Below are positions 29,334-45,035 of a stretch of DNA of 64,000 bases, piece after piece (position 1 is the stretch's first letter; each line of letters begins with the position of its first letter). The stretch comes from Agrobacterium tumefaciens. GTDB lineage: Bacteria > Pseudomonadota > Alphaproteobacteria > Rhizobiales > Rhizobiaceae. The notes below the pieces were generated by a model. It did not search any database. It was not told where the DNA came from and worked only from the letters and a program-made list of their open reading frames with translations. The stretch lies in assembly GCF_013337285.1 (NCBI RefSeq), contig NZ_SUPW01000006.1:186001-250000 (forward strand). The letters run 5' to 3'. The translations under genes were made by a program, and so were the position numbers.

Positions 29334-29729
29334 TCAGCCGCCATATTGGTCGTCCGTCACCTTCTCCATCCAGTCCACCACCTTGCCGTCCTTGACTTCC
29401 TGAAGTGCAATGTGGGTCATGGCAACATTGGGAGCAGCGCCGTGCCAGTGCCTTTCGTCGGGTGCGAACCAGACGATATCGCCGGGGCGGATTTCTTCCA
29501 CCGGGCCACCCTCGCGCTGTACGCGGCCAAAGCCGGAGACGACGATCAGTGTCTGGCCGAGTGGATGGGTGTGCCAGGCTGTGCGGGCGCCGGGCTCAAA
29601 GGTGACCTGTGCACCCTGAACCCGCTCTGCATCGAAGGGATTGAACAGCGGATCAATGCGGACCGTGCCGGTGAACCAGTCCTCGGGTCCCTTGGCGGAT
29701 GCCCGGGTTCCTGCACGCAATATTTCCAT
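29334..29729 (-). CDS. Cupin protein, hydroxynitrile-lyase-like
   Basis: The 131-residue single-domain cupin contains [22 protein letters not shown], with the His-x-His and Gln metal ligands, and the second cupin motif [19 protein letters not shown] with the last His. From memory the sequence closely resembles the manganese-dependent cupin hydroxynitrile lyase of Granulicella ([19 protein letters not shown] is shared). Most such bacterial proteins have no known native role. The ATG at 29729 is seven bases after AGGAG; an earlier ATG at 29735 is too close to it. The gene appears monocistronic. Confidence 0.85.
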
Positions 29730-29948
29730 GGTCATTCTCCTGATTGGAATCGTGTGGTGATTTGAGGCGGGAATTCCCCTGTTGTCCACAGGGGCGTTCA
29801 ATCGAGCGGAGAGGCTGCAGACATTTTTTGAAGCCGCCGGCTTCGATCATTTTGATGGGTTGTCGCACTCTTTTGCGCGTATTTTGCGACACTGTCAGCA
29901 TTGATTTTGCCTTCCTTCCAGACGCTGCGAGAAAAATCGCACTCGGGA

Positions 29949-29996
29949 TTGACTCAATTATGAAAACGGTTACATTTGCTCATGTAAACGGTTTCA
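29949..29996 (+). promoter_or_regulatory. Promoter with two LacI-type operators for the ribose-type importer
   Basis: TTGACT (29949-29954) and TACATT (29971-29976) form a possible promoter with a 16-base spacer. TGAAAACGGTTACA (29961-29974) and TGTAAACGGTTTCA (29983-29996) are similar AACGGTT-centred elements, inverted copies of each other at 12 of 14 positions, separated by eight bases. One lies within the promoter and one across the expected start. They are probable sites for the LacI protein at 34596. The rest of the 300-base spacer after the cupin gene shows nothing I can name. Confidence 0.7.
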
Positions 29997-30029: not shown

Positions 30030-31052
30030 ATGTTTAGACATTTGATGGCTGCCGCCGCTTTGGTGCTGGCGGCCGGCACGTCGGCGTACGCCCAGGAACA
30101 GAGCTTCAAGATCGGTCTTTCCAACTCGTTCGTCGGCAGCGAATGGCGCACGCAGATGATCGAGGAAGCCCAGGCTGCCGCAAAGGCGTGGGGCGAAAAG
30201 GGCGTCAAGGTCGAGGTTGTCGTTCAGAGCGGTAATGTCGATGTGCAGGGGCAGATCGGTCATATCCGCAATTTCATGAACCAGGGCGTTGATGCGATCC
30301 TCATCAATCCCGGCAGCCCGACGGCTTTCGATCCGATCTTCGCGCAGGCCAAGGCGCGCAACATTCTCGTCATCGCAACCGACGCCGAAGTGTCCTCGAA
30401 GGACGCGCTCTATGTCGGCATCGACCAGAAGGCATGGGCGGCGCAGTCCGCGCAATGGCTTGCGGATGCGCTGAAGGGCAAGGGAAGCGTCGTCGCCATC
30501 AACGGCATCGCCGGCAACCCCGCCAACGAAGCCCGCGTCGCCGGTTATCGCGAAGTGTTCAAGAAATACCCTGACATCAAGGTGCTGAACGAAGCAAATG
30601 CCAGCTGGGATCAGGCGCAGGGCCAGCAGGCCATGCAGAACCTGCTCGCCACCTACCCCGATATCAGCGGCGTGTGGGTGCAGGACGGCATGGCCGATGG
30701 CGCATGGCGCGCAATCGAAGCTGCCGGCAAGACCAAGGACATTGCGGCCACCGGTGAAATCCGCAAGGACTTCATGACCCGCTGGGAGAAGGAAAAGTTC
30801 AATTCCGGCGCGTCGGTCAATCCTCCCGGCGTCATGGCAAGCGCGCTCAACGTTGCTGTGCTGAAGCTGCAGGGCAAGGAATTCAAGGACGGTATTTTTG
30901 GTGGCACCTATGGTAACGCCATCTATATTCCGATCCCCTTCGTTAGCAACGACAACCTTGCCGACAATATCAAGGCCGCCGATGGCAAGCCTGGCTACTG
31001 GTCCGTCACGGCAACCGTAACGCCAGAGCAGGCTGGCGAGTTCTTCAAGTAA
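30030..31052 (+). CDS. Periplasmic sugar-binding protein (ribose/xylose type)
   Basis: The 340-residue protein has a signal peptide (MFRHLMAAAALVLAAGTSAYAQ) and the type-1 periplasmic binding fold seen in RbsB: FKIGLSNSFVGSEWRTQM, NQGVDAILINPGSPTAFDPI, VAINGIAGNPANEARVAGYREV and GVWVQDGMADGAWRAIEAAG. It delivers a sugar to the permeases at 32678 and 33624. GGAGG precedes the ATG at 30030. First gene of the operon; a hairpin follows its stop. Confidence 0.93.
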   Translation: MFRHLMAAAALVLAAGTSAYAQEQSFKIGLSNSFVGSEWRTQMIEEAQAAAKAWGEKGVKVEVVVQSGNVDVQGQIGHIRNFMNQGVDAILINPGSPTAFDPIFAQAKARNILVIATDAEVSSKDALYVGIDQKAWAAQSAQWLADALKGKGSVVAINGIAGNPANEARVAGYREVFKKYPDIKVLNEANASWDQAQGQQAMQNLLATYPDISGVWVQDGMADGAWRAIEAAGKTKDIAATGEIRKDFMTRWEKEKFNSGASVNPPGVMASALNVAVLKLQGKEFKDGIFGGTYGNAIYIPIPFVSNDNLADNIKAADGKPGYWSVTATVTPEQAGEFFK

Positions 31053-31059
31053 GAACGGC

Positions 31060-31088
31060 TTCGGGCTGGCGGCAATTGCCAGCCCGAA
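31060..31088 (+). other. Intercistronic hairpin after the binding-protein gene
   Basis: TTCGGGCTGGC (31060-31070) pairs perfectly with GCCAGCCCGAA (31078-31088) around a seven-base loop, eight bases after the stop codon. It is not followed by a T run and probably sets a higher level of the binding protein than of the ATPase and permeases. Confidence 0.7.
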
Positions 31089-31187
31089 TCTTCCAATTCG
31101 AGTGCGGACTTCAGGTGCGGGACCATGTGTTCTTTTCCGTGTCCGCCCATGACAAGAACAATGACAGTTACAATTCGGGGACATGCG

Positions 31188-32681
31188 ATGGCGAACGCTT
31201 TGGAAGCGGCCGGCATAACGAAGAATTTTGGGGCCGTGCGCGCGCTTTCTGACGGCAGGCTGACGGTTGGTCGCGGCGAAATTCACGCGCTGCTGGGCGC
31301 CAATGGTTGCGGCAAGAGCACGCTCTGCAAGATCGTTGCGGGCGCGGTCTCGCCAACCAGCGGCACGATCAGCTTCAACGGCGCGGAAGTGCGCTTCAAA
31401 AGCCCGCGTGACGCCGAAAATGCCGGTATCGCCTTGTTTTATCAGGAGCTGAGCCTCATTCCGCAGCTTTCCGTCGCCGACAATATCTTTCTCGGGCGTG
31501 AACCGAAGCGCGGCGTTTTCGTCGACGGCAAGGCACTGAAAGCCGAAGCGGCCAGGCTGATCGCGCTGTTTGACGGGGTTGCAGGCAAAGGGCTGGAGCC
31601 GGATGCCATCGTCGGCAATCTGCCGCCGGATCAGCGCCAGCTTGTCGAAATCCTCAAGGTTTTTGCACAGAATGCCAGCCTGATGATCATGGACGAGGCG
31701 ACAGCGGCGCTTGATGGCCGCCAGTCGCAGCGCTTTTTCGAGATATTGAGGGCCAAGAAGGCGGACGGTATCTCCACCATCATGATTTCCCACCGTCTCG
31801 ACGAAGTTTTCGCCGTCTGCGATCGCATCACCGTGATGCGCAACGGCGCGACGATTTCTGAACTCGATACGGCAGCCACCACTCGCGAAGCCGTCGTGCA
31901 CGATATGGTCGGTGATGTCCGCGCCGCACCCGCCCGCCAGCAGGGACGCGCTGCTGCAGCGCCCAGCCTGAAGGTGACGGATGTTGCGGGCGAGGGCATT
32001 CGCGGCGTCAGTCTGGAAGCCTATCCGGGTGAAATTATCGGTCTCGCCGGCCTGCAGGGACAGGGGCAGTCGGCCTTGCTGAAGGGCCTTTTCGGCGCCA
32101 GCCCCTTTGCCGCCGGCCAAGTCCGGTTCGAGGGCCGTGTAATCACCATCGGCAAGCCTTCGCAGGCGGTTCACAACGGTTTTGCCTATGTCTCGGGTGA
32201 TCGTGGGCGCGACGCCTCCCTTCAGGGAAGGTCGATCTTCGAAAATCTCGTGGCGGCGCTGATGGTGCGCGAAAAGATGCGGCTGATCCGGCCAGCGGCG
32301 CTGAAACCGCGTATGCAAAAGGTCGCGGATGATATGAAGACAAAATTTGCCGGCATGGATATGGCCATCGGCACGCTTTCGGGCGGCAACCAGCAGAAGA
32401 TCTTCATCTCCCGCTGGCTTGCCACATCGCCGAAACTGCTTTTGCTCGATGACCCGACCAAGGGCATCGATCTTGGCGCAAAGGCCGACCTGTTTGCGCT
32501 GATGCGACAGCAGGCCGATGCCGGCGCGACCATTCTTCTCTATTCGTCGGAAGATGCGGAGCTCCTCGAATATGCCGACCGCATTCTTGTGTTCAACGGC
32601 GGACAAATTTCCGCCGAACTGACCGGAGCCGACATGACATCCGTCAACATGACCCGCGCCGCCTACGGAGACGCCGCATGA
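31188..32681 (+). CDS. Sugar ABC importer, double ATPase subunit (RbsA/MglA type)
   Basis: The 497-residue protein contains two fused ABC domains. The first has Walker A LLGANGCGKSTLC, signature region NLPPDQRQLVEI and Walker B LMIMDEATAALD. The second has a degenerate P-loop GLAGLQGQGQSALLKG, as usual in this family, and LSGGNQQKIFISRWL with LLLLDDPTKGIDLGAK. I chose the ATG at 31188; earlier in-frame ATGs (31161 and before) have no better site. It overlaps the first permease by four bases. Confidence 0.93.
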   Translation: MANALEAAGITKNFGAVRALSDGRLTVGRGEIHALLGANGCGKSTLCKIVAGAVSPTSGTISFNGAEVRFKSPRDAENAGIALFYQELSLIPQLSVADNIFLGREPKRGVFVDGKALKAEAARLIALFDGVAGKGLEPDAIVGNLPPDQRQLVEILKVFAQNASLMIMDEATAALDGRQSQRFFEILRAKKADGISTIMISHRLDEVFAVCDRITVMRNGATISELDTAATTREAVVHDMVGDVRAAPARQQGRAAAAPSLKVTDVAGEGIRGVSLEAYPGEIIGLAGLQGQGQSALLKGLFGASPFAAGQVRFEGRVITIGKPSQAVHNGFAYVSGDRGRDASLQGRSIFENLVAALMVREKMRLIRPAALKPRMQKVADDMKTKFAGMDMAIGTLSGGNQQKIFISRWLATSPKLLLLDDPTKGIDLGAKADLFALMRQQADAGATILLYSSEDAELLEYADRILVFNGGQISAELTGADMTSVNMTRAAYGDAA

Positions 32682-33622
32682 GTTCCTCCGGTTTTCTGCG
32701 CAAGCAACCCTGGATCATAACCCTCTTCGTTCTCACGGTTCTCATTGCTGTGAACACGTTTCTGCAGCCGTCCTTCGTGCAGCCTTCCGTGCTGCAGTCG
32801 AACCTGACGACGTTTCTGCCCCTGATCCTCGTCGCCATCGGCCAGACCTATGTCATTCTAGCGGGAGATATCGATCTGTCGGTCGGCAGCATCGTGGCGC
32901 TTGCCAATGTCGTCACCGTCAGCGTCATCGCGGCGCTTGGCGGCACGACGGGTGCCGTCTTCGCCGGCATGGCGGCAGGGGCTGCGGTCGGGCTGCTTTG
33001 CGGTCTGGTGAATGGCCTGTTCATATCGGGCTTACGCTTCCAGCCGATCGTCACCACCTTCGCGACGGGCATCATCTTCGCCGGACTGGCGATCTGGGTC
33101 CTGCCGCAGGCTGGCCTTCCGGTGCCGGAAGCCTATTGGCAGACCTATTCCGGCAGCTTCATCGGCCTGCCCTTCGTGTTGTGGGTGCTGCTGGCCGGCA
33201 TCGCCTTCACGCTGATCCTGTCGCGCATTCCGTTTCACGCCCATTTGTTGGCGGTTGGCGGCAATCGTACCGGCGCCTTCCAGACGGGCCTGCGCCTTTC
33301 GGGCATCCGCATCGGCGCATACATGATCTCTGGACTGTTTTCGGCGCTGGCGGCGCTGTGCCTGACGGGCGAGACGGCCTCGGGCGATCCATTGCTCGGT
33401 GCGAGCTTGGCGTTGTCCTCCATTTCGGCCGTAGTTTTGGGTGGCACCGCGCTTTCCGGTGGCTTCGGCAGCTCGACAGGGTCAATTGCGGGAGCACTGG
33501 TGCTCGGCATGATCGGTAATGTGATTTTCTTTGCGGGGCTACCCTTCGAGTACCAGACACTGGTGCAGGGTTTGATCGTGCTGACGGCGCTGGCCGGCGG
33601 TGTTCTGGTGACGAGGCGTTGA
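32678..33622 (+). CDS. Sugar ABC importer permease (RbsC type), first copy
   Basis: The 314-residue inner-membrane protein has eight or more hydrophobic segments and the RbsC-family signature LAGDIDLSVGSIVALANVV and GGTALSGGFGSSTGSIAGALVLGMIGNV. It overlaps the ATPase by four bases and is followed after one base by a second, different permease. The pair is thus likely a heterodimer, where many ribose-type systems use one gene. Confidence 0.93.
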   Translation: MSSSGFLRKQPWIITLFVLTVLIAVNTFLQPSFVQPSVLQSNLTTFLPLILVAIGQTYVILAGDIDLSVGSIVALANVVTVSVIAALGGTTGAVFAGMAAGAAVGLLCGLVNGLFISGLRFQPIVTTFATGIIFAGLAIWVLPQAGLPVPEAYWQTYSGSFIGLPFVLWVLLAGIAFTLILSRIPFHAHLLAVGGNRTGAFQTGLRLSGIRIGAYMISGLFSALAALCLTGETASGDPLLGASLALSSISAVVLGGTALSGGFGSSTGSIAGALVLGMIGNVIFFAGLPFEYQTLVQGLIVLTALAGGVLVTRR

Positions 33623-33623
33623 T

Positions 33624-34592
33624 ATGACCAATCCCGGCTTGCAAATCAAATCCATCATCACCGATCCCCTGACCATTGCGATTGGCGCGTCGGTCTTCCT
33701 GCTGCTGGTCGGCGAATTGCTGTCGCCCGGCTTTGCGCAGGGGTCGCAGATCGTGCGGCTGCTGACGATCGCCGCCATTCTCGGCATCGTCGCGGCGGGA
33801 CAGAACCTCGTGATCCTCGGCGGACGCGAAGGCATTGATCTTTCCGTCGGCGCGATGATCTCGCTCGGCGCGGTCCTTGCAGGCAATATGATGAACGGCC
33901 AGAATGCGGGCATCCCGCTCGCCATTCTCGTCGCGGGCGGCGTTCCCTTCCTCATCGGCCTCATCAACGGCCTCGGCATTACCTTCGTGCGCATTCCGCC
34001 GCTGGTCATGACACTCGGCATGACGGCAGTGATACAGGGCGGGCTGGTTGTTTATTCGCAGGGCGTTCCGTCAGGTGCGGCAGCCCCCCTTCTGGCGGGC
34101 TTCATCAACCGTCCGCTCATCTTCGGTATTCCCGGCGTGCTGTTCGTCTGGCTTGGCATTGCCGCGATCATGCTGTTCGTGCTGCGCCGCACGGCCTTCG
34201 GTTTCGCGGTTTACGCCATCGGCTCGAACGAGCGGGCGGCGACGCTAACCGGATTGCCCGTTTCCCTGATCCGCACGCTGCTCTATGGTCTCTCCGGCCT
34301 GTTCGCCGGGCTGACCGGGGTTTGCGTGATCGGTTATACCGGCACCTCCTTCATTTCTGTCGGCGACCAATATGTCCTTCCGTCGATCATCGCGGTCGTC
34401 ATCGGCGGCACTTCGCTTGCCGGCGGTGCGGGCGGATATGTCGGAACCATGGCCGGGGCGGTTGCGCTCACCATTCTGCAAAGCGTACTGATAACGCTCA
34501 ACCTCGATGTATGGGCACGGCAGATCATATTCGGTGTCACGTTGCTAGCGCTGATGCTGCTTTATGGCCGCCAAAAGCAGTTGCGTGTGTGA
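33624..34592 (+). CDS. Sugar ABC importer permease (RbsC type), second copy
   Basis: The 322-residue membrane protein shares the family markers with its neighbour (LGGREGIDLSVGAMISLGAVLAGNMM and VIGGTSLAGGAGGYVGTMAGAVALTILQSVLITL) but is clearly divergent from it in sequence. It lies one base after the first permease and three before the LacI gene, so all are cotranscribed. Confidence 0.93.
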   Translation: MTNPGLQIKSIITDPLTIAIGASVFLLLVGELLSPGFAQGSQIVRLLTIAAILGIVAAGQNLVILGGREGIDLSVGAMISLGAVLAGNMMNGQNAGIPLAILVAGGVPFLIGLINGLGITFVRIPPLVMTLGMTAVIQGGLVVYSQGVPSGAAAPLLAGFINRPLIFGIPGVLFVWLGIAAIMLFVLRRTAFGFAVYAIGSNERAATLTGLPVSLIRTLLYGLSGLFAGLTGVCVIGYTGTSFISVGDQYVLPSIIAVVIGGTSLAGGAGGYVGTMAGAVALTILQSVLITLNLDVWARQIIFGVTLLALMLLYGRQKQLRV

Positions 34593-34595
34593 CAG

Positions 34596-35621
34596 ATGAG
34601 CAAAGACCAAGGTTCGAATATCAGGGAAGTTGCAGCTCTCGCGGGTGTTTCCATCGCGACCGTTTCAAGGGCGCTGCAACAACCCGACAAGGTTCGCCCG
34701 GAAACTCGGAAAAAGGTTTTCGACGCCGTCCGGCTGGCGAATTTTGTTCCCAACGCCCAGGCCGCGAGCTTCAGGCGTCAATCCAACAACACCGTCATCC
34801 TTCTCGTTCGCGATATCGGCAACCCGTTTTATCTCGAAATCTACAAGGGTGTGGAGGAGGCCGCCGGCGAAGCGGGTTTCAAGGTGCTGATGGGCGACGC
34901 CCGCAATGACGAGAACCGCGTGGCGACCCATATCGATATGGTGCGCCAGAAACATGCCGATGGCCTGATCCTGATGACCGGTCAGTTTCCTTCAGAGTTT
35001 CTCGATCAGGCCGACACGCTGCCGCCGATCGTCATCGCGTCGGAAACCGTGCCCGGCATCGCGCTGCCCACGGTCAAGGTGGATAACCGCGCCGCTTCCA
35101 GAAACGCCGTGCGGCATCTGATCGAGGCGGGGCACAGGGAGATCGTGCATCTTGCCGGTCCGTTCCCGGAGAGTCTGGCGAATGAGCGTTTCGAAGGCTA
35201 TCGGGATGCGCTGGTTGAAGCCGGTATTGGCTACTCCGACAAGCTGGTGGTGACGGGCGATTACAGTATCGAAGCCGGTCGTCAGGCGATAACCGGCCTT
35301 CTCGAAAACGGCATTGCCTTTACTGCGATCTTCGCATCGAGCGACCAGATGGCGATTGGCGCGATCAGTGAGTTGCGGGCGCGTGGCGTTTCGGTTCCGA
35401 CCGATGTCTCGGTCATTGGCTTCGACGATATCATCTTTGCCAACGCCTTTGAGCCGCCACTGACAACGGTACGCCAGCCCCGGCAGGAAATGGGCCGCAG
35501 GGCCATGGCGCTGATGGTTGACCGGCTGAACGGCAAGCGCACGGCTGAAACCATCGTGCTGGATACGGAATTGGTGGTGCGCGGCTCGGTCGCGCCCTGC
35601 CGCCGCCCGCCGCATCGGTAG
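34596..35621 (+). CDS. LacI-family regulator of the ribose-type importer operon
   Basis: The 341-residue protein has the LacI helix-turn-helix (IREVAALAGVSIATVSRALQQPDKVRPETRKKV) and a ligand domain (ILLVRDIGNPFYLEIYKGVEEAAGEAGFKVLMGDARND, PTDVSVIGFDDIIFANAFEPPLTTVRQP). Lying three bases after the second permease, it is part of the operon it probably controls, giving autoregulation through the operators at 29961-29996. The ligand is presumably the imported sugar or a product. Confidence 0.93.
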   Translation: MSKDQGSNIREVAALAGVSIATVSRALQQPDKVRPETRKKVFDAVRLANFVPNAQAASFRRQSNNTVILLVRDIGNPFYLEIYKGVEEAAGEAGFKVLMGDARNDENRVATHIDMVRQKHADGLILMTGQFPSEFLDQADTLPPIVIASETVPGIALPTVKVDNRAASRNAVRHLIEAGHREIVHLAGPFPESLANERFEGYRDALVEAGIGYSDKLVVTGDYSIEAGRQAITGLLENGIAFTAIFASSDQMAIGAISELRARGVSVPTDVSVIGFDDIIFANAFEPPLTTVRQPRQEMGRRAMALMVDRLNGKRTAETIVLDTELVVRGSVAPCRRPPHR

Positions 35622-35660
35622 CGGCTACGCCGAAATTGTGAATGCAAGGAGTGTAAGGAC

Positions 35661-36710
35661 ATGAAGACGATCAAAGGCCCCGCGATTTTCCTCGCGCAAT
35701 TTGTCGGGGACGAAGCCCCCTTCGACACGCTCGACAATCTCGGCCAATGGGCGGCTTCGCTCGGTTACAAGGGCATCCAGCTGCCGACCGATCCAAAACT
35801 CTTCGATCTCGAAAAAGCTGCCTCCTCCAAGACCTACTGCGATGATATCAAGGGTCGTCTGGCCGAGACAGGCGTCGAGATCACCGAGCTTTCCACCCAT
35901 ATTCAGGGCCAGCTTGTTGCTGTTCATCCCACCTATGATGAAATGTTCGATGGTTTTGCACCGGCCGAGTTGCGCGGCAAACCGCAGGCGCGGCAGGAAT
36001 GGGCGGTCAACCAGCTGAAGTGTGCGGCGAAAGCCTCGCAGCATCTTGGCCTCAAAAGCCACGCAACTTTCTCTGGCGCGCTTGCCTGGCCCTTCGTTTA
36101 TCCGTGGCCGCAGCGTCCGGCTGGTCTTGTCGAAATGGCCTTTGCGGAATTGGGCAAGCGCTGGACACCGATTCTCGATGCTTTCGAGGAGAATGGTGTC
36201 GATCTCTGCTACGAGCTGCATCCGGGTGAGGACCTGCATGACGGCGTCACCTTCGAGCGGTTTCTCGAGGCCACCGGCAATCATCCGCGCGCCAACATTC
36301 TCTATGATCCCTCGCATTTCGTGCTTCAGGCGATGGATTATCTTGAGTTCATCGATATCTACCACGAGCGTATCCGCGCCTTTCACGTCAAGGATGCGGA
36401 GTTCAATCCGACCGGCCGTTCCGGCGTTTATGGCGGCTATCAGAGCTGGGTCGACCGGCCGGGGCGTTTCCGTTCGCTCGGCGACGGGCATGTCGATTTC
36501 GGTGCGGTGTTCTCCAAACTCACCCAATATGACTTCGACGGCTGGGCGGTGCTGGAATGGGAATGCGCGCTGAAACACCCGGAAGATGGGGCGCGTGAAG
36601 GTGCGGGCTTTATTGAAAACCACATCATCCGCGTGACTGAGCGGGCTTTCGACGATTTCGCCAAGAGCGGCGTCGATGATGCCGCCAACCGTCGCCTTCT
36701 TGGACTTTGA
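35661..36710 (+). CDS. Cytoplasmic sugar isomerase/epimerase-like TIM-barrel protein
   Basis: The 349-residue protein has the xylose-isomerase-like TIM barrel with metal-site segments VDLCYELHPGEDLHDG (Glu and His), ILYDPSHFVLQ (Asp, His), IRAFHVKDAEFN and GWAVLEWECAL (Glu). It lacks a signal peptide. Members of this family include isomerases, epimerases and enzymes that act on 3-keto-glycosides, including catalytic subunits of C-glycoside deglycosidases. It is cotranscribed with the importer and with the dehydrogenase that overlaps its end region, so it processes the imported sugar. Confidence 0.85.
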   Translation: MKTIKGPAIFLAQFVGDEAPFDTLDNLGQWAASLGYKGIQLPTDPKLFDLEKAASSKTYCDDIKGRLAETGVEITELSTHIQGQLVAVHPTYDEMFDGFAPAELRGKPQARQEWAVNQLKCAAKASQHLGLKSHATFSGALAWPFVYPWPQRPAGLVEMAFAELGKRWTPILDAFEENGVDLCYELHPGEDLHDGVTFERFLEATGNHPRANILYDPSHFVLQAMDYLEFIDIYHERIRAFHVKDAEFNPTGRSGVYGGYQSWVDRPGRFRSLGDGHVDFGAVFSKLTQYDFDGWAVLEWECALKHPEDGAREGAGFIENHIIRVTERAFDDFAKSGVDDAANRRLLGL

Positions 36711-36721
36711 AAGGGATAGCC

Positions 36722-37891
36722 ATGTCTTCCGGCACAAAAAAATTCGACAGCCGCCGTATCCGTCTCGGTATGGTGGGTGGTGGTCAGGGCGCTTTTATCG
36801 GCGCTGTGCATCGCATCGCCGCAAGGCTGGACGACCGTTATGAACTGGTGGCCGGCGCGCTTTCCTCTGATGCGGCCCGCGCTAGCGCTTCTGCGACCCT
36901 GCTTGGCATTGGGCCGGAGCGCTCTTATGCATCGTTTGAGGACATGGCGGCGGCCGAAGCCGGACGTGAAGACGGCATTGAGGCAGTCGCCATCGTTACG
37001 CCGAACCATCTGCATTTCGCCCCGGCCAAGGCGTTTCTCGAAGCTGGCATCCACGTCATCTGCGACAAGCCCGTCACCGCGACGATGGACGAGGCGAGGG
37101 CGCTTGCCAAGATCGTCGGCGCATCCGACCGGCTGTTCATCCTCACGCATAATTACACCGGCTACGCCATGTTGCGGCAGATGCGCGAGATGGTTGCGAA
37201 TGACGCCATCGGCAAGCTGCGCCATGTCCAGGCGGAATATGCGCAGGACTGGCTGACCGAAGCGGTGGAAAAGACCGGCGCAAAGGGTGCGGAATGGCGC
37301 ACCGACCCCAGCCGCTCCGGCGCGGGCGGGGCAATCGGCGATATCGGCACCCATGCCTTCAACGCCGCCGCCTTCGTGACGGGTGAAATCCCGACGAGCC
37401 TTTATGCCGATCTGACCTCGTTCGTGCCGGGCCGGCAGCTGGATGACAGCGCCAATATTCTGCTGCGTTACGAAAGCGGTGCGAAGGGAATGCTGTGGGC
37501 GAGCCAGATCGCTGTCGGCAATGAAAATGCGCTGTCGCTCAGGGTCTATGGCGACAGGGGCGGACTTGAGTGGCACCACCGGATACCAGACGAGCTGTGG
37601 TTTACGCCTTATGGAGAGCCGAAACGGCTTATCACCCGTAACGGTGCGGGGGCAGGTGCTGCCGCCAGCCGTGTCAGCCGCGTGCCATCCGGGCACCCGG
37701 AGGGATATCTCGAAGGTTTTGCGACGATTTACCGCGAAGCCGCAGACGCAATCATCGCAAAAAGGGAGGGAAAGACAGCCGCCGGGGATGTGATTTATCC
37801 CGGCATAGAGGACGGCCTTGCGGGTCTCGCATTCATCGATGCGGCCGTTCGGTCCAGCCGGACCTCGTCCTGGGTAGGGATAGACATCTAG
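36722..37891 (+). CDS. Gfo/Idh/MocA-family sugar dehydrogenase
   Basis: The 389-residue protein has the Rossmann motif LGMVGGGQGAFIGAVHRIAA, VAIVTPNHLHFAPAKAFLEAGIHVICDKPVTATMDEA with the family DKP, and GGAIGDIGTHAFNAAAFV. It would use NAD(P) to oxidise or reduce a sugar or keto-sugar. AAGGG lies before the ATG at 36722; a TTG five codons earlier overlaps the previous stop. It closes the importer/catabolic operon. Confidence 0.88.
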   Translation: MSSGTKKFDSRRIRLGMVGGGQGAFIGAVHRIAARLDDRYELVAGALSSDAARASASATLLGIGPERSYASFEDMAAAEAGREDGIEAVAIVTPNHLHFAPAKAFLEAGIHVICDKPVTATMDEARALAKIVGASDRLFILTHNYTGYAMLRQMREMVANDAIGKLRHVQAEYAQDWLTEAVEKTGAKGAEWRTDPSRSGAGGAIGDIGTHAFNAAAFVTGEIPTSLYADLTSFVPGRQLDDSANILLRYESGAKGMLWASQIAVGNENALSLRVYGDRGGLEWHHRIPDELWFTPYGEPKRLITRNGAGAGAAASRVSRVPSGHPEGYLEGFATIYREAADAIIAKREGKTAAGDVIYPGIEDGLAGLAFIDAAVRSSRTSSWVGIDI

Positions 37892-38020
37892 ATCATCGCA
37901 TACCGAGAACGGACGACGCAGGGCACAGGAGGCGGTGCCCGGCATGACCCGGTCAGAAGGCCGGGAAACGCGTGGGCACACGTGTCGTCACATTGATCAA
38001 ACGGAAAGGGAGTTACGCGT

Positions 38021-38875
38021 TTGAAAACGTTCAAGTCAAAATTCGCAAGCATGGCAGTCGTCGTCGCATTGGCGGCCGGTATCGCAAACCCGGTTTTTGC
38101 TGAAGACAGCAAGACACTGCCGATCGCCGCGCAGATGTACACATTGCGCAATGCGGGAACACTTGAGGAGCAGCTTGCAATCCTCAACCGCGCCGGCGTT
38201 TCCGCCGTGGAAACGGTGGACATGCAGAAGGTCAGCGCCAGCGAGCTGAACGCGCTTCTGGAAAAGCACAAGATCAAGGTCATTTCCTCGCATGTACCGA
38301 TCGACAAACTGCGCGGCAACCTCGATGAGGTCATCACCGAGCAGAAGGCCGTCGGCAATCCGGTCGTGACCGTGCCTTTCCTGAAACCCGAAGATCGCCC
38401 GAAGGACGCCGCTGGCTGGACCGCCTTCGGCAAGGAGCTTGGTGGATATGCCGACAAGCTGTCTGCGGCAGGCCTCTCCATGGCTTACCACAACCACGAC
38501 TTTGAAATGGTCAAGTTCGACGGCAAGACAGCGCTTGAGTTGCTGCTCAATGCCGCTGGCCCGAAGCTGCAGAGCGAACTCGACGTCGCCTGGGTGGCGC
38601 GCAGCGGCAATGATCCGGCGCAGTTCCTCGGCACGTTGAAGGGCCGGGTATTTGCCATCCATGCCAAGGACAATGCGCCTGCGGGCACGGCGGAAAATGA
38701 GCGCGGCTTTGCCACGCTGGGCACCGGCGTTCTAGACTGGAAGGCAATTCTGCCGGCGGCCAAGCAGGCCGGCGTCAAGTGGTTCATCCTTGAACACGAC
38801 CTTCCGCTCGATGCCGAAGCTGTCGTGACCAAGGGCAATGCGTTCCTTAACGAACGCCTGCCGACCCTTCAGTAA
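38021..38875 (+). CDS. Exported sugar isomerase-like TIM-barrel protein
   Basis: The 284-residue protein has a signal peptide (MAVVVALAAGIANPVFAED after a basic start) and then a xylose-isomerase-like TIM barrel: IAAQMYTLRNAGTLEEQLAIL, LSMAYHNHDFEMVKFDG, ELDVAWVARSGNDP, GRVFAIHAKDNAP and WFILEHDLP. Members of the family are mostly cytoplasmic, so export to the periplasm is notable. The start is TTG at 38021 with GGGAG upstream. It lies before a GMC dehydrogenase that probably acts in the same compartment. Function as an isomerase or keto-glycoside lyase is inference. Confidence 0.83.
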   Translation: MKTFKSKFASMAVVVALAAGIANPVFAEDSKTLPIAAQMYTLRNAGTLEEQLAILNRAGVSAVETVDMQKVSASELNALLEKHKIKVISSHVPIDKLRGNLDEVITEQKAVGNPVVTVPFLKPEDRPKDAAGWTAFGKELGGYADKLSAAGLSMAYHNHDFEMVKFDGKTALELLLNAAGPKLQSELDVAWVARSGNDPAQFLGTLKGRVFAIHAKDNAPAGTAENERGFATLGTGVLDWKAILPAAKQAGVKWFILEHDLPLDAEAVVTKGNAFLNERLPTLQ

Positions 38876-38901
38876 ACACTGCCAGTAAAACCAGAACCGC
38901 T

Positions 38902-38925
38902 CCCCGGCGGCCGGTTTCGCCGGGG
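38902..38925 (+). terminator. GC-rich hairpin after the exported isomerase-like gene
   Basis: CCCCGGCG (38902-38909) pairs with CGCCGGGG (38918-38925) around an eight-base loop, 27 bases past the stop codon. No T tract follows, so termination may be partial. Confidence 0.5.
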
Positions 38926-39025
38926 CGCATGAGGTTCGACAGACGCATATCCAGTTTCCGCCGCGTCGCGACGGGAAGCGTTTCGTCTCGTCGTTTTTTC
39001 CAAAGTACACATCGGAGGAGTTATC

Positions 39026-40711
39026 ATGGCGAACAATCATTATGATGCGATTGTTGTCGGCTCAGGTATCAGTGGAGGCTGGGCCGCAAAGGAACTCACG
39101 GAAAAGGGCCTGAAGGTCCTGCTGCTGGAACGCGGCCGGAACATCGAGCACATCACCGACTATCAGAATGCGGACAAGGAAGCCTGGGATTATCCCCATC
39201 GCAACCGCGCCACGCAGGAGATGAAGGCGAAATACCCCGTTCTCAGCCGCGATTATCTGCTGGAAGAAGCCACGCTCGGCATGTGGGCCGATGAGCAGGA
39301 AACGCCCTATGTCGAAGAAAAACGCTTCGACTGGTTCCGCGGTTATCACGTCGGTGGCCGTTCGCTGCTCTGGGGACGCCAGACTTATCGCTGGTCGCAG
39401 ACCGATTTCGAAGCCAATGCGAAAGATGGCATCGCCGTCGACTGGCCCATCCGCTATGAGGACGTCTCTCCGTGGTATGATTATGTCGAGCGTTTTGCCG
39501 GCATTTCCGGCAGCCGGGAAGGGCTGGATATTCTTCCCGATGGTGAATTTTTGCCGCCCATTCCGCTCAATTTCGTCGAGCAGGATGTTGCCAGCCGGCT
39601 GAAGAAAGCTTTCAAAGGCACGCGCCACCTCATTAATTCGCGTTGCGCCAACATCACCCAGGAACTTCCGGATCAGGAGCGCACGCGCTGTCAGTTCCGC
39701 AACAAGTGTCGGCTGGGCTGTCCCTTCGGCGGTTATTTCAGCACGCAGGCATCGACCCTGCCTGCGGCGGTCGCTACCGGCAATCTCACTTTGCGACCTT
39801 TCTCCATCGTCAAGGAAATCCTCTACGACAAGGACAAGAAGAAGGCGCGTGGCGTCGAGATCATCGATGCCGAGACGAACCTGACCTATGAATATACCGC
39901 CGACATCATCTTCCTTAACGCCTCGACGCTGAACTCGACATGGGTATTGATGAATTCCGCCACCGACGTCTGGGAGGGCGGGCTTGGAAGCAGCTCCGGC
40001 GAACTCGGCCATAACGTGATGGACCACCATTTCCGCATGGGGGCCACCGGCCAGGTTGAGGGTTTCGATGATTTCTATTTCAAGGGTCGCCGCCCGGCGG
40101 GCTTCTATATTCCCCGCTTCCGCAACACCGGCGACGACAAGCGCAAATATCTGCGCGGGTTCGGTTATCAGGGATCCGCCAGCCGGTCGCGCTGGGAGCG
40201 GGAAATCGCCGAACTCAATATCGGTGCCGACTACAAGGAGGCGCTGACCGAGCCGGGCGGCTGGACCATCGGCATGACCGCCTTCGGCGAAATGCTGCCG
40301 TATCATGAGAACCGCGTGAAGCTGGATCAGGACAAGAAGGACAAATGGGGCCTTCCCGTCCTGTCGATGAATGTCGAGATGAAGCAGAACGAACTCGATA
40401 TGCGCGAAGACATGGTCAATGACGCCGTCGAGATGTTCGAGGCGGTCGGCATCAAGAACGTCAAGCCCTCGCGGGGCACCTACGCGCCGGGCATGGGCAT
40501 TCATGAAATGGGAACGGCCCGCATGGGACGCGACCCGAAAACCTCCGTCCTCAACGGCAATAACCAGGTCTGGGATGCACCCAACGTCTTCGTGACCGAT
40601 GGCGCCTGCATGACCTCGGCGTCCTGCGTCAACCCGTCGCTCACCTATATGGCGTTGACGGCGCGTGCCGCCGATTTTGCCGTTTCTGAACGCAAGAAGG
40701 GGAACCTGTGA
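39026..40711 (+). CDS. GMC-family FAD sugar dehydrogenase, catalytic subunit
   Basis: The 561-residue flavoprotein has the FAD site DAIVVGSGISGGWAAKELTEKGLKVLLLERG, the GYHVGGRSLLWGRQTYR segment, and the C-terminal GIHEMGTARMG and SCVNPSLTYMALTARAA with the catalytic His and Asn. Cys222, Cys228 and Cys232 (spacing x5, x3) match the cysteines that bind a 3Fe-4S cluster in bacterial FAD-glucose dehydrogenase. It has no signal peptide and would be carried out by its Tat-tagged partner at 40711. The family includes glucoside 3-dehydrogenase and gluconate/sorbitol dehydrogenases. Confidence 0.9.
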   Translation: MANNHYDAIVVGSGISGGWAAKELTEKGLKVLLLERGRNIEHITDYQNADKEAWDYPHRNRATQEMKAKYPVLSRDYLLEEATLGMWADEQETPYVEEKRFDWFRGYHVGGRSLLWGRQTYRWSQTDFEANAKDGIAVDWPIRYEDVSPWYDYVERFAGISGSREGLDILPDGEFLPPIPLNFVEQDVASRLKKAFKGTRHLINSRCANITQELPDQERTRCQFRNKCRLGCPFGGYFSTQASTLPAAVATGNLTLRPFSIVKEILYDKDKKKARGVEIIDAETNLTYEYTADIIFLNASTLNSTWVLMNSATDVWEGGLGSSSGELGHNVMDHHFRMGATGQVEGFDDFYFKGRRPAGFYIPRFRNTGDDKRKYLRGFGYQGSASRSRWEREIAELNIGADYKEALTEPGGWTIGMTAFGEMLPYHENRVKLDQDKKDKWGLPVLSMNVEMKQNELDMREDMVNDAVEMFEAVGIKNVKPSRGTYAPGMGIHEMGTARMGRDPKTSVLNGNNQVWDAPNVFVTDGACMTSASCVNPSLTYMALTARAADFAVSERKKGNL

Positions 40712-41268
40712 TGAACAGACGCGAACTGCTGAAACTGATAGCCATTGCCACCGGCCTTCCGCTGATCGGCGCGGATATCCTCACGGCTGCGGAAAACGCC
40801 GCCAAGCCCGCCGGCGGCCATGTGTTCAGCCCGGAGGATATCCGGTTTCTGGATGAGGTTGCGGAGACCATTATTCCCCGCACGTCCACGCCGGGTGCAA
40901 AGGATGCCGCTGTCGGCGCATTCATGGCGGTTTACGCGGCCGATTGTTATACCGAGGAGCAGCGGACACTCTTCCTCTCGGCAATCCCCGAAATCGAGAA
41001 GCGCAGTCAGGCCGAGCACAAAAAGGCATTTCTGGAGTTGACGGATCAGCAGCGGCAGACGCTGCTTGCGGCGCTGGACAAACAGGCCAAGGCGGAACAG
41101 ACGCCGACCGCTCCGCACGCCTTCACACTCGTCAAGCAATTGACGCTGCTCGGTTTCTTCACCTCGAAGATCGGCGCGACGGAAGTTCTCGTTTATGACG
41201 AAATTCCCGGCGGTTTCGAAGACCGCGTTCCCTATAACAAGGGCACGCCCGCGTGGGGCACGACCTGA
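40711..41268 (+). CDS. Small (gluconate 2-dehydrogenase subunit 3-like) subunit with Tat signal
   Basis: The 185-residue protein has a twin-arginine signal (MNRRELLKLIAIATGLPLIGADILTA) followed by the subunit-3 domain with DEVAETIIPRTSTPGAKDAAVGAFM and a C-terminal YDEIPGGFEDRVPYNKGTPAWGTT. In related dehydrogenases it is needed for export and maturation of the flavin subunit. Its ATG overlaps the stop of the flavoprotein gene by one base, and a hairpin follows before the cytochrome gene. Confidence 0.9.
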   Translation: MNRRELLKLIAIATGLPLIGADILTAAENAAKPAGGHVFSPEDIRFLDEVAETIIPRTSTPGAKDAAVGAFMAVYAADCYTEEQRTLFLSAIPEIEKRSQAEHKKAFLELTDQQRQTLLAALDKQAKAEQTPTAPHAFTLVKQLTLLGFFTSKIGATEVLVYDEIPGGFEDRVPYNKGTPAWGTT

Positions 41269-41282
41269 ACAGAGCAACCTCC

Positions 41283-41308
41283 GGCCCGTCCGCTTTTGCG
41301 GGCGGGCC
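41283..41308 (+). other. Intercistronic hairpin before the cytochrome c gene
   Basis: GGCCCGTCCGC (41283-41293) pairs with GCGGGCGGGCC (41298-41308) with one wobble pair and a TTTT loop, 14 bases past the small-subunit stop. It could end most transcripts or protect the upstream message. Confidence 0.55.
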
Positions 41309-41338
41309 GTATTTATGCGGCAAGACAAGGATGACACG

Positions 41339-41734
41339 ATGCGCAATACAACAATCATCGCGGCGGCAATGCTGACTGCAAGCGCCATTCCCGCTCTTTC
41401 GGAAGGCGATGTCGCCAAGGGGGAGGCGGTGTTCAAGCGCTGTTCCGCCTGCCACGCCATCGGCGAGGGCGCCAAAAACCGGGTTGGCCCACAGCTTAAC
41501 GGCATCATTGGCCGCGCTGCCGGTGGCGTATCTGACTATAATTATTCGAGTGCGATGAAAAAAGCGGGCGAGGACGGTCTCGTCTGGACGCCGGAGGAAT
41601 TGCGGGATTTCCTGAGCGCGCCGAAAAAGAAAATACCTGGAAACAAGATGGCGCTGGCCGGCATCAGCAAGCCGGAAGATCTGGACAACCTCATCGCCTA
41701 TATCGAAAGCGCGGCTTCGAAACCGGCCGAGTGA
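41339..41734 (+). CDS. Periplasmic class I cytochrome c
   Basis: The 131-residue protein has a signal peptide (IIAAAMLTASAIPALSEG), one haem c site CSACH and the distal Met in KIPGNKMALAGI, the layout of a soluble cytochrome c550/c2-like protein. Following the flavoprotein and its small subunit, it is the probable electron acceptor linking sugar oxidation to the respiratory chain. AAGGA precedes the ATG at 41339. Confidence 0.9.
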   Translation: MRNTTIIAAAMLTASAIPALSEGDVAKGEAVFKRCSACHAIGEGAKNRVGPQLNGIIGRAAGGVSDYNYSSAMKKAGEDGLVWTPEELRDFLSAPKKKIPGNKMALAGISKPEDLDNLIAYIESAASKPAE

Positions 41735-41776: not shown

Positions 41777-42478
41777 TTATACTTGGCTTGTTTCGCCCTC
41801 TGCCAGCTGGGCAAGGCCCGGCAGATTGCACACCAGCAGCTTCTGCCGCCCTCCCTGCACCAGTCCCTTGGACTCCCAGCTGGAAAGGATGCGCGAGACC
41901 GTGTGCAGGGTCGTGCCGGTCATCTCGGCGATGTCCTGACGCGAGATCGGGAAATCGATACGGATGCCGTCCTCCTCCTTGCGTCCCGCCTGCTGCGAAA
42001 GACGCAGCACGGCATGGGCCACCCGGCGCTCCACTTCCTGTGTCGACATTTCGCGGATGCGCGTATGGGCTTCTTCAAGACGCTGACCGATGGTCTGCAT
42101 GGCGGAGACGGCGAGATGCGGGTTCTGCTCGACGAATTGCGGCCAGAGGTCCGTCTGCCACGACAGGATGACGCTTTCGGCAGCTGTCGTGGCTGTGCCG
42201 GGATAATCGGACCGTTGCAGTGCTCGCGCGAAACCGAAGAGATCACCGGGATGCACCATACGCACGATGATCTGCTGACCGTCATGCGTCACCTGCGTCA
42301 CCTTCAGGCGGCCGTGGATGAGCAGGAAGAAATGTGTTGCCGATTGCCCCTGCTCGAAAATGGCTTCGCCCGGCGGCACCAGCCGGGATGTGGCGTGGGT
42401 CAGCAGTCCGTCCAGCTCATCGTCGGCCATCTTGGCAAACAAGGCCAGCGACCGGATGACGCTTCGGTCAATCTTCAC
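41777..42478 (-). CDS. nnrR: Crp/Fnr-family nitric-oxide-responsive regulator NnrR
   Basis: The 233-residue protein has an N-terminal cyclic-nucleotide-like fold (PGEAIFEQGQSATHFFLLIHGRLKV) without the N-terminal cysteine cluster of FNR, and a C-terminal winged helix (FPISRQDIAEMTGTTLHTVSRILSSWESKGLV). Beside nirK it is NnrR, which activates nir and nor genes in response to NO. The start is GTG; I chose 42478, eight bases after GGAGAG, over an in-frame GTG at 42484 that is too close. Two FNR-type boxes lie upstream. Confidence 0.93.
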   Translation of the reverse strand: MKIDRSVIRSLALFAKMADDELDGLLTHATSRLVPPGEAIFEQGQSATHFFLLIHGRLKVTQVTHDGQQIIVRMVHPGDLFGFARALQRSDYPGTATTAAESVILSWQTDLWPQFVEQNPHLAVSAMQTIGQRLEEAHTRIREMSTQEVERRVAHAVLRLSQQAGRKEEDGIRIDFPISRQDIAEMTGTTLHTVSRILSSWESKGLVQGGRQKLLVCNLPGLAQLAEGETSQV

Positions 42479-42590
42479 TTGCACCCTCTCCGGTGATTGG
42501 ACGATCCTCAGGATGATTGCATTGGCAATCGGAGATCGGCCTTTTCTGTATTGTCAGCATACAGCACTATCACCGGCGGCAGAAGATCAA

Positions 42591-43656: not shown

Positions 43657-44799
43657 TCAGATGCTCGACGGGGCGAGCACCGCCTGCATCAGGCTGTTGT
43701 TCCACTCACCCGTTACCTTGAAATGGCCGGCCGCGCCCAGTTCGAAGGCCTCGATGAGGTTGTGGTTGACATAGGCATAGATGCCGGGCTGCTCGAAGGT
43801 GTAGAAGGCCGCACCCGCCGTGCCGCCGGGAATGAACCAGGTTTCCTGGTCGAGATCAGGCGGGTTGCGGAATTTGCCGGTGGCCCAGACATAATCGCCA
43901 TGGCCGCCGATAAGATGCGGGCGGGTATCACGGTTGGCCTGCGAATGGACGATCAGCACCTTTTCACCGACTGCGGCCTGAAGGGCGTGTTCCCCGGTCA
44001 GGGCGCCGACTGCGCCGTTAAAGACGATGTGGGTTGGCGTCAGCGTGCGCATCACCTCCAGCGTATCTGCCATGGCGTCGCCGGCGCTTTCATATTTCTT
44101 GAAATTGCCGTTCTCGTCACGCGGGATGTAGAAGTCCTGCTCGCCGATATAATAGACCTTGTCATAAACAAGCTCCTTGCCGTGGCCGTCGGTCAGGCCC
44201 TCACGCGGCAGCACCATGATCGCGCCGTTCATGCCCGAGGTGACGTGCCACGGCACCATGCCGGGAGGTGCGCAGTGATAGACGAAGACGCCGGCCTTGG
44301 TCGCCTTGAAGCGCAGGATCGCTTTTTCACCGGGGTTGACGATGGTCAGCCCGCCGCCGCCGAGCGCCCCGGTGGCCGAATGGAAATCGATATTGTGCTG
44401 CAGCTCGTTGGTATCGGGGTTGATGAGGGTCAGTTCGACATAGTCGTCCTGATGCACCACCATCAAGGGGCCGGGAACCGAACCGTTGAACGTCATGGCG
44501 TGAACTTCGGTGCCCTTGTCGTCGAGGACCATCTTCTGCTCTTTGATCGTCAGCGTGAACTCGACGATCTTCGGTCCGCCTTCGGCTTTTTGCGTATGGG
44601 CGTGTACGAAGGGCGGTTTGACGAGGTCAACCTTTACGCGAGGTAGCGCTGCAATCTCCGCGCTCGTCAATGGCTTGGCCGCGGCCTTCTTTTCCTCTGC
44701 CGCGCTTGCTGCCGAAGGCATGATCATGGGCGCTACAGCCCCTGCAAATGCTGCGCCTGCGAGAATATTACGCCGTGTGATGTGGAACCCGTCCGTCAT
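43657..44799 (-). CDS. nirK: Copper-containing nitrite reductase
   Basis: The 380-residue enzyme reduces nitrite to NO in the periplasm. It has a Tat signal ([15 protein letters not shown]). Type 1 copper ligands are His135, Cys176, His185 and Met190; type 2 ligands are His140, His175 and His346; the catalytic Asp138 and His295 are present, all offset by 40 from the Alcaligenes enzyme numbering as I remember it. The ATG at 44799 is seven bases after AGGAG; the adjacent ATG at 44802 is possible. Promoter elements are at 44852-44892. Confidence 0.97.
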
Positions 44800-44878
44800 C
44801 ATATTTCTCCTGTCCCTCTTAGGGCAGAGCATCTTTCGCTCTGTCACAACATTTGTAGCGGAGATGCAGAAATACAAT

Positions 44879-44892
44879 TTGAGATGGAACAA
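44879..44892 (-). promoter_or_regulatory. NnrR/FNR-type box of nirK
   Basis: TTGAGATGGAACAA (TTG-N8-CAA) is centred 28.5 bases before the first base of TACAAA (minus strand, 44857-44852), a four-of-six -10 match. The start would be near 44845, giving a leader of about 45 bases. Confidence 0.7.
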
Positions 44893-44964
44893 ACTACCCT
44901 GGCGGCGACCTGCGACATTTTGGCAGTCGATTGAGGAACGGTGCGGAAGCATTGCTCCTCCTCT

Positions 44965-44978
44965 TTGCCTGTTCGCAA
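44965..44978 (+). promoter_or_regulatory. NnrR-type box of nnrS
   Basis: TTGCCTGTTCGCAA lies in a perfect inverted repeat CTCTTTGC/GCAAAGAG (44961-44982). Its centre is 29.5 bases before TAGACA (45001-45006), so it would act at -41.5 of a start near 45013, with AAGGAG and the nnrS ATG just behind. A further palindrome GACATATGTC (45003-45012) covers the -10 region. Confidence 0.7.
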
Positions 44979-45035
44979 AGAGGCTGGACGGGCTTGGGTC
45001 TAGACATATGTCAAGACCAAGCAAGGAGCATTATA

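Follow-up and report, generated by a model that had tools for sequence, protein, structure and literature searches.

When a glucoside is oxidized and cut outside the cell, which product is taken up, and through which importer? This question is raised by 11 genes at positions 30030 to 41734 of a stretch of 64,000 nucleotides of Agrobacterium tumefaciens (the window; contig NZ_SUPW01000006.1, positions 186,001 to 250,000, of a genome of 5.0 Mb). We consider it quite likely that these genes form a non-hydrolytic β-glucoside catabolic operon that is split across the inner membrane, with an importer that carries the elimination product. Outside, a GMC dehydrogenase, together with a small subunit carried by the twin-arginine translocation (Tat) system and a cytochrome c, would oxidize C3 of the glucoside (plant aryl-β-glucosides, cellobiose and similar compounds), and an exported Mn2+ eliminase would free the aglycone and 2-hydroxy-3-keto-glucal. 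A CUT2 ATP-binding cassette (ABC) importer would bring this glucal inside, where a hydratase would add water to give 3-keto-glucose and a Gfo enzyme would convert this into glucose. A LacI-family repressor would control the whole pathway. The initial annotation had already proposed 3-oxidation of a glycoside, cleavage by an exported triosephosphate isomerase (TIM) barrel protein, import and reduction; this scheme fits every gene, and its oxidation and cleavage steps agree with assays of close orthologues (PMC10628242). The gene positions that it gave were also borne out: all 11 open reading frames (ORFs) are present, uninterrupted and on the + strand, and their families were settled by Pfam (ten proteins first, the cytochrome separately). 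The features are as follows.

29949-29976, + strand: promoter-like site TTGACT-16-TACATT (consensus scan), overlapping the first operator
29961-29996, no strand: putative LacI-family operator of two tandem words, TGAAAACGGTTACA and TGTAAACGGTTTCA, 22 bp from start to start (motif search)
30030-31052, + strand: exported binding protein of the CUT2 (ribose-type) ABC importer (Peripla_BP_4, PF13407, 1.9e-61; Foldseek)
31185-32681, + strand: CUT2 double ATPase (PF00005)
32678-33622, + strand: CUT2 permease 1, BPD_transp_2 (PF02653)
33624-34592, + strand: CUT2 permease 2, BPD_transp_2 (PF02653)
34596-35621, + strand: LacI-family repressor, likely the cluster regulator (PF00356 and PF13377)
35661-36710, + strand: predicted cytoplasmic 2-hydroxy-3-keto-glucal hydratase (AtHYD orthologue), AP_endonuc_2 TIM barrel (8RO4, ~95%; without leader)
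36722-37891, + strand: Gfo/Idh/MocA reductase, predicted to convert 3-keto-glucose into glucose (PF01408/PF22725; place in the published operon)
38021-38875, + strand: predicted exported Mn2+ O-glycoside β-eliminase (AtOGE orthologue), AP_endonuc_2 (8BVK, ~95%; leader, active-site residues)
39026-40711, + strand: predicted catalytic subunit of a FAD/GMC glucoside 3-dehydrogenase, GlycDH/G3DH (PF05199/PF00732; position in the published operon)
40708-41268, + strand: small 'hitch-hiker' subunit with twin-arginine leader, Gluconate_2-dh3 (PF13618; twin-arginine motif)
41282-41309, + strand: G+C-rich hairpin in the gap between the small subunit and cytochrome genes (terminator-like scan)
41339-41734, + strand: exported cytochrome c, likely electron acceptor (PF00034; leader-like segment)

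A sequence search of the PDB matched the 38021 protein to 8BVK, which is AtOGE (E value 1e-162, ~95% identity, mature protein of 257 residues), and the aligned part of the 8BVK chain starts at the apparent end of the leader. The Mn2+ ligands H157, D188, H214 and E258 and the catalytic H159 are all present; this numbering is that of PMC10628242 plus 25 (His132, His134, Asp163, His189 and Glu233 in that paper). To search a genome collection for eliminases, we used two short patterns together with an alignment built from exported members; of 581 confirmed loci, the best 80 were retained. The equivalents of the five residues are kept in 54/54 exported eliminase rows, a conservation that is partly by construction, as two of the histidines fall inside one of the two patterns, and the leaderless relatives also retain the metal and catalytic residues. 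The 35661 protein aligned over 349/349 residues with 8RO4 (E value 8.4e-239, ~95% identity), which was deposited under the name 2-hydroxy-3-keto-glucal hydratase. Judged by sequence, the 38021 protein is an O-glycoside β-eliminase of the AtOGE type, with release of 2-hydroxy-3-keto-glucal shown for the orthologue only, and the 35661 protein is the hydratase. As one is nearly identical to an eliminase of solved structure and the other to a hydratase of solved structure, we rejected the label of isomerase that both TIM-barrel proteins had been given. AtOGE frees the aglycone and 2-hydroxy-3-keto-glucal from 3-keto-phlorizin and also cleaves 3'-keto-cellobiose (PMC10628242). The evidence for hydration of the glucal by AtHYD and for reduction to glucose by the Gfo enzyme, which was used with NADH, was termed preliminary in the same paper. 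Hydrolysis by a DUF1080 protein was rejected as the cleavage step of the cluster, since PF06439 had no match among its 11 proteins. Two DUF1080 matches are found elsewhere in this genome, at C16:258961 (~9 kb past the window) and at C17:149099, scoring 33.1 and 30 bits, where 26.8 is the cut-off.

The side of the membrane on which each enzyme would work was judged from its leader, called by our own hydrophobicity rule instead of dedicated signal-peptide software. In the window, the eliminase, the binding protein and the cytochrome have a leader, that of the eliminase being of the Sec type, the small subunit has a twin-arginine leader, and the hydratase, the reductase and the GMC protein have none. 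The same division is seen near the other exported eliminases (53 rows, window apart), where the hydratase is leaderless in 43/43 cases and the reductase in 40/40, and where the small subunit carries a loosely defined twin-arginine motif in 33/33. As the eliminases are exported and the hydratases and reductases are leaderless, we infer that elimination and hydration take place on opposite sides of the membrane. The compound that crosses it would then be 2-hydroxy-3-keto-glucal, unless this is hydrated spontaneously. The genes of the GMC subunit, the small subunit and the cytochrome c are consecutive in that order (39026-41734). The GMC dehydrogenase had been described as Tat dependent; there is indeed a twin-arginine leader in the complex, but its motif NRRELLK sits on the small subunit (40708-41268) and the GMC protein itself has no leader-like segment by our rule, so that its export would be piggy-back. 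We assign 39026-40711 as GlycDH from its position in the published operon rather than from direct comparison with the GlycDH record, and C3 oxidation of glycosides is its predicted activity. The GlycDH of Rhizobium sp. GIN611, which is 95.5% identical to that of A. tumefaciens, was assayed for this C3 oxidation (PMC10628242). As far as the accessible part of the source goes, the glucoside 3-dehydrogenase of R. radiobacter is an FAD enzyme with a mono-haem cytochrome c as electron acceptor (PMC9915066); the complex of Miyazaki et al. (2018), apparently studied for electrodes, is like ours in having FAD and cytochrome c. The GMC dehydrogenase is also an obvious candidate for the activity that the classical 3-ketolactose test detects in biovar 1 agrobacteria. 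R. rhododendri is 3-ketolactose negative according to the accessible part of PMC10064268, and the GMC gene is absent from the fetched stretch around its cluster, its chromosome not having been searched.

Monosaccharides are the cargo of CUT2 systems, and CUT1 systems transport mainly larger sugars, so that in the loci scanned the importer class follows the place of cleavage. Among the best 80 of the 581 loci, 49 eliminases are exported and 31 are leaderless. An exported member had been called unusual for this family, which does not hold for these loci, although 49/80 is not a family-wide rate because the scan was seeded with exported members. Within 10 kb of the exported eliminases there is an importer of CUT2 or nucleoside-symporter type at 40/49 loci, a CUT1 permease at 0/49 and none recognised at 9/49; near the leaderless ones there is a CUT1 importer at 17/31, CUT1 plus a CUT2 permease at 1/31 and none recognised at 13/31. 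These classes come from BLAST against references that were partly taken from the same clusters, so unlike importers near leaderless eliminases could be missed, and CUT1-type ATPase matches without permeases, which occur at several exported loci, were not counted. Raw Fisher tests of export against importer class gave 7e-15 by loci and 3e-8 by genus, figures that are no fair probability, as the export state changed only ~4 times on the tree. In this tree (87 eliminase rows; a quick method, with several long branches flagged, and with L049 and L104 of the same genome both included) the importer type changes 6 times and the export state 4 times; L112 is leaderless in this ORF-based tree and exported in the importer count, where it was read from DNA. 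The main exported clade has 51 rows (96 in the Shimodaira-Hasegawa-like approximate likelihood ratio test, SH-aLRT) and three unlike importers, with none recognised in 6/51. These are the CUT2 importer of the window, a second CUT2 importer (Paracoccus, Palleronia, Celeribacter) and a carrier that is Nuc_H_symport in locus L069 and that by BLAST is also present at other Xanthomonadaceae, Halomonadaceae, Pectobacterium, Pantoea and Pseudomonas loci. With so few changes of export state, we regard the correlation as good circumstantial evidence and not as large-sample proof. In many of the exported-eliminase clusters outside the Rhizobiaceae (L066-L069 and others, from Xanthomonadaceae, Halomonadaceae and Paracoccus-like bacteria), a DUF1080 protein and a further TIM-barrel protein are also encoded beside GMC; in L069 this barrel has a leader with a twin-arginine motif.

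The CUT2 importer set is complete, with a Peripla_BP_4 binding protein, a double ATPase and two BPD_transp_2 permeases. An AlphaFold model of the binding protein, made from 5 close sequences (mean predicted local distance difference test score 77.8), gave arabinose-, ribose- and polyol-type binders as the best Foldseek matches, which points to the general CUT2 fold only. The closest binding proteins of solved structure share ~20-30% identity with it and have ribose, arabinose and other sugars as ligands. We collected the neighbourhoods of this gene from all 37 further genomes of the family that have it and from one of the class (38 loci), generally from ~2 kb ahead of the gene to 11 kb beyond it (in S. 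meliloti, 10 kb to either side; for L171, only 3 kb). L161, L172 and L188 were left out of the tree because the gene was not picked. One large sister clade has 31 rows; outside it, a hydratase adjoins the importer in 16/18 rows, two of the 16 coming from one genome. Together with L064, the 31-row clade represents a widespread rhizobial importer, without hydratase in the stretches covered. From the leaders and the synteny, the cargo of the importer in the window is probably 2-hydroxy-3-keto-glucal.

The genes also travel together. Four of them were looked for across 39 genomes of the genus: the eliminase (at least 87% identity) and the dehydrogenase (at least 95%) were found in the same 22 genomes, and orthologues of the binding protein and the hydratase were found in these 22 plus one more, G120. 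The four genes are close together in 21 of the 22 genomes and lie in two places in the other, G267. In a different taxonomic order, a plasmid of Ketogulonicigenium robustum has the importer, LacI, hydratase, Gfo, GMC, small subunit and eliminase genes together. This synteny and the co-occurrence in the same 22/39 genomes indicate that the arrangement is not due to chance. Some relative of the hydratase and the eliminase is present in all 39 genomes, mostly at ~73% and ~36% identity, respectively. At the level of the family, the binding protein (E value 1e-80) was found in 40 and the eliminase (E value 1e-50) in 3 of 247 genomes of the family, one of these eliminases being leaderless, and class-wide searches found the binding protein in 2/385 and the eliminase in 1/385, the genome of the window included. 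The nearest named loci in the eliminase scan are from Agrobacterium.

In one relative, the two parts of the cluster have an operator in common. The initial annotation saw two transcription units, which is doubtful: there is no + strand terminator-like site between 37891 and 38021, and the sole operator pair found within the locus is upstream of 30030. Palindromes in front of the eliminase gene are poor, and a separate operator there was rejected. The locus may thus be one 11-gene operon, with a weak terminator-like site after the eliminase gene and ahead of the GMC gene (38970-38987). Words with at most 2 mismatches to the operator number 5 in the window, three of them outside the locus, against 0.35 in base-shuffled windows. 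The promoter-like site at 29949-29976 is weak alone, as 5 such sites were found in the region and 3.3 are expected. The operator pair recurs with its 22-bp spacing at 5/5 named Agrobacterium-type loci (L070-L074), where the first word is either unchanged or differs at one position. Two weaker words are present at L046 and L075 and a single one, with 2 mismatches, at L104, L036 and L064; L065 has no word within 2 mismatches. In G267, an eliminase-dehydrogenase-cytochrome half and an importer-LacI-hydratase-reductase half are on different contigs, each far from the contig ends (C18, 312 kb into 659 kb; C19, 428-435 kb into 537 kb). Both halves have the tandem operator upstream, with identical 14-base words, in a promoter stretch of 88 columns with 89% identity that retains a trace of the binding-protein start. 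The half that moved thus appears to have kept the same control, which argues for one regulon.

Several observations weigh against the glucal as the cargo. It may hydrate spontaneously before import, which would make 3-keto-glucose the compound that is taken up. The 31-row sister clade (SH-aLRT 100, ~66-72% identity, S. meliloti included) has no hydratase within the fetched stretches, and the strongly conserved motifs of the binding protein are the same in this clade and in the window, so that the binding protein alone is no proof of cargo. Judging by this clade, the importer is not confined to the glucoside pathway. G120 has the importer, hydratase and reductase and no orthologue of the eliminase or the dehydrogenase (its best dehydrogenase relative has 27% identity and its eliminase relative only 35%); its importer block (L046, G120:C51) adjoins a ThuA homologue and a neighbour that we take to be ThuB. 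Possibly, bacteria of this type scavenge fragments made by others, or the importer is broader than the glucoside pathway. Besides its CUT2 set, the Ketogulonicigenium locus, which was not one of the 80, has CUT1 permeases that belong to an adjacent cluster. Finally, four changes of export state are few independent events, and the locus counts overstate the correlation. With the same enzymes, the importer might carry 3-keto-glucose formed by spontaneous hydration, or several keto-sugars, and the hydratase would handle the unhydrated remainder. Importer relatives without a nearby hydratase would fit this, as would the G120 block beside ThuA and ThuB homologues, where another source of keto-sugar is conceivable. 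If hydration took place outside, however, a leaderless hydratase adjoining the importer would be wasteful, and that is what is found (adjoining in 16/18 rows outside the 31-row clade, leaderless in 43/43). Moreover, according to the accessible part of PMC7676230, the product of LgdB2, thought to be 3-keto-glucose, was too unstable for isolation, which would make it a poor cargo for import. We therefore consider this explanation unlikely, though not negligible.

We give still less weight to the importer block being an independent system that takes up some unrelated monosaccharide or polyol and only happens to lie beside the glucoside enzymes, with the hydratase and reductase serving both. The sister importers without hydratase in the 31 rows, and the ribose, arabinose and other sugars bound by the nearest solved proteins at ~20-30% identity, would agree with it. 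The recurrence of the same cluster in Ketogulonicigenium, the operator common to both separated halves in G267 and the presence of other monosaccharide-type importers in the same slot elsewhere argue against it. That the exported TIM barrel really isomerizes or epimerizes free keto-sugars, next to a GMC enzyme that oxidizes polyols or gluconate, is highly improbable: it is suggested by the general family names only (AP_endonuc_2, GMC, Gluconate_2-dh3) and is contradicted by the published AtOGE assays with 3-keto-phlorizin and 3'-keto-cellobiose (PMC10628242). Uptake of the elimination product thus remains our preferred explanation. A stricter version, to which we hold only tentatively, is that the CUT2 importer is dedicated to 2-hydroxy-3-keto-glucal, an unsaturated and reactive keto-sugar, that three unlike importers of monosaccharide type were recruited in separate lineages and that G120 may use the fragments of its neighbours.

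The locus was initially proposed to be an undescribed system, but the enzymes and the operon were published in 2023-2024. The later of these publications, by Kastner et al. in 2024, which we know from reference lists only, is reportedly on the A. tumefaciens GlycDH-AtOGE-AtHYD-Gfo operon, from the same organism group as the window and with the same four enzymes. Bitter et al. (2023) described the A. tumefaciens operon with oxidation, β-elimination, hydration and reduction, as a putative four-enzyme pathway in the legend of their Fig. 3 (PMC10628242). The enzymes and the four-step chemistry are therefore already known, and the locus is no new system. A word search of the main text of that paper gave no mention of periplasm, signal peptide, transporter or LacI. 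In the open-licence literature, supplements excluded, we found no description of the importer and the compartment split, and the literature covered names no gene for uptake of a 3-keto-glycoside product in Agrobacterium. The split, the importer and the regulon are apparently new.

Among related pathways, the rhizobial thuEFGKAB genes encode 3-keto disaccharide chemistry with Gfo-type enzymes, and a CUT1 importer takes in the intact sugar, which is then oxidized inside, whereas cleavage would be outside in the window. We take such thu-type chemistry with Gfo-type enzymes to be present in the genome of the window as well. Among three related loci in this genome (L051-L053), one encodes an eliminase-like protein that lacks a leader, together with a CUT1 importer, and adjoins thu-type genes; there are also hydratase-reductase pairs, with 73% and 64% hydratase identity, and the 73% pair is with a CUT1 importer. 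In Bacillus smithii, the levoglucosan dehydrogenase is of the Gfo type and presumably acts on an intact anhydrosugar taken in by the importer. The accessible part of PMC7676230 shows that this first enzyme is unlike the GMC protein of the window, that LgdA-B1-B2-C follow the same four-step order via the same glucal and that the cluster likewise has ABC transporter and LacI genes; it does not mention the periplasm. For the layout, the lacABC/DUF1080 lactose cluster of Caulobacter crescentus (Price et al.) is a precedent, as far as the accessible part of PMC9007349 goes; there a putative DUF1080 hydrolase cleaves, and the window would be the eliminase version with an ABC importer.

Some neighbouring genes deserve mention. 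A cupin gene (29334-29801, - strand) is divergent from the importer. It scores 199 bits with the NCBIfam (R)-mandelonitrile lyase model (cut-off 140), and its PDB kin are 4BIF, 8OZ8 and 4UXA. The gene is within ~2.2 kb of the importer in 16/22 cluster-bearing genomes of the genus, and cupins of 81-83% identity are also present in four genomes without the cluster. Prunasin and other cyanogenic glucosides would set mandelonitrile free, a possible link to the cupin that we mention as a lead only. Directly downstream of the cluster, a Crp/Fnr-type regulator gene (41777-42484) accompanies a gene for copper nitrite reductase (43657-45024, - strand; TIGR02376, 547 bits).

The layout would place the membrane within the pathway and would name a candidate importer for a keto-sugar fragment. 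If it is correct, a glucoside would be cut outside whatever its aglycone, the aglycone would be left out and one universal fragment would be imported, which would explain why a single eliminase suffices for plant glucosides whose aglycones differ widely. It also predicts that loss of the importer would strand the fragment outside the cell.

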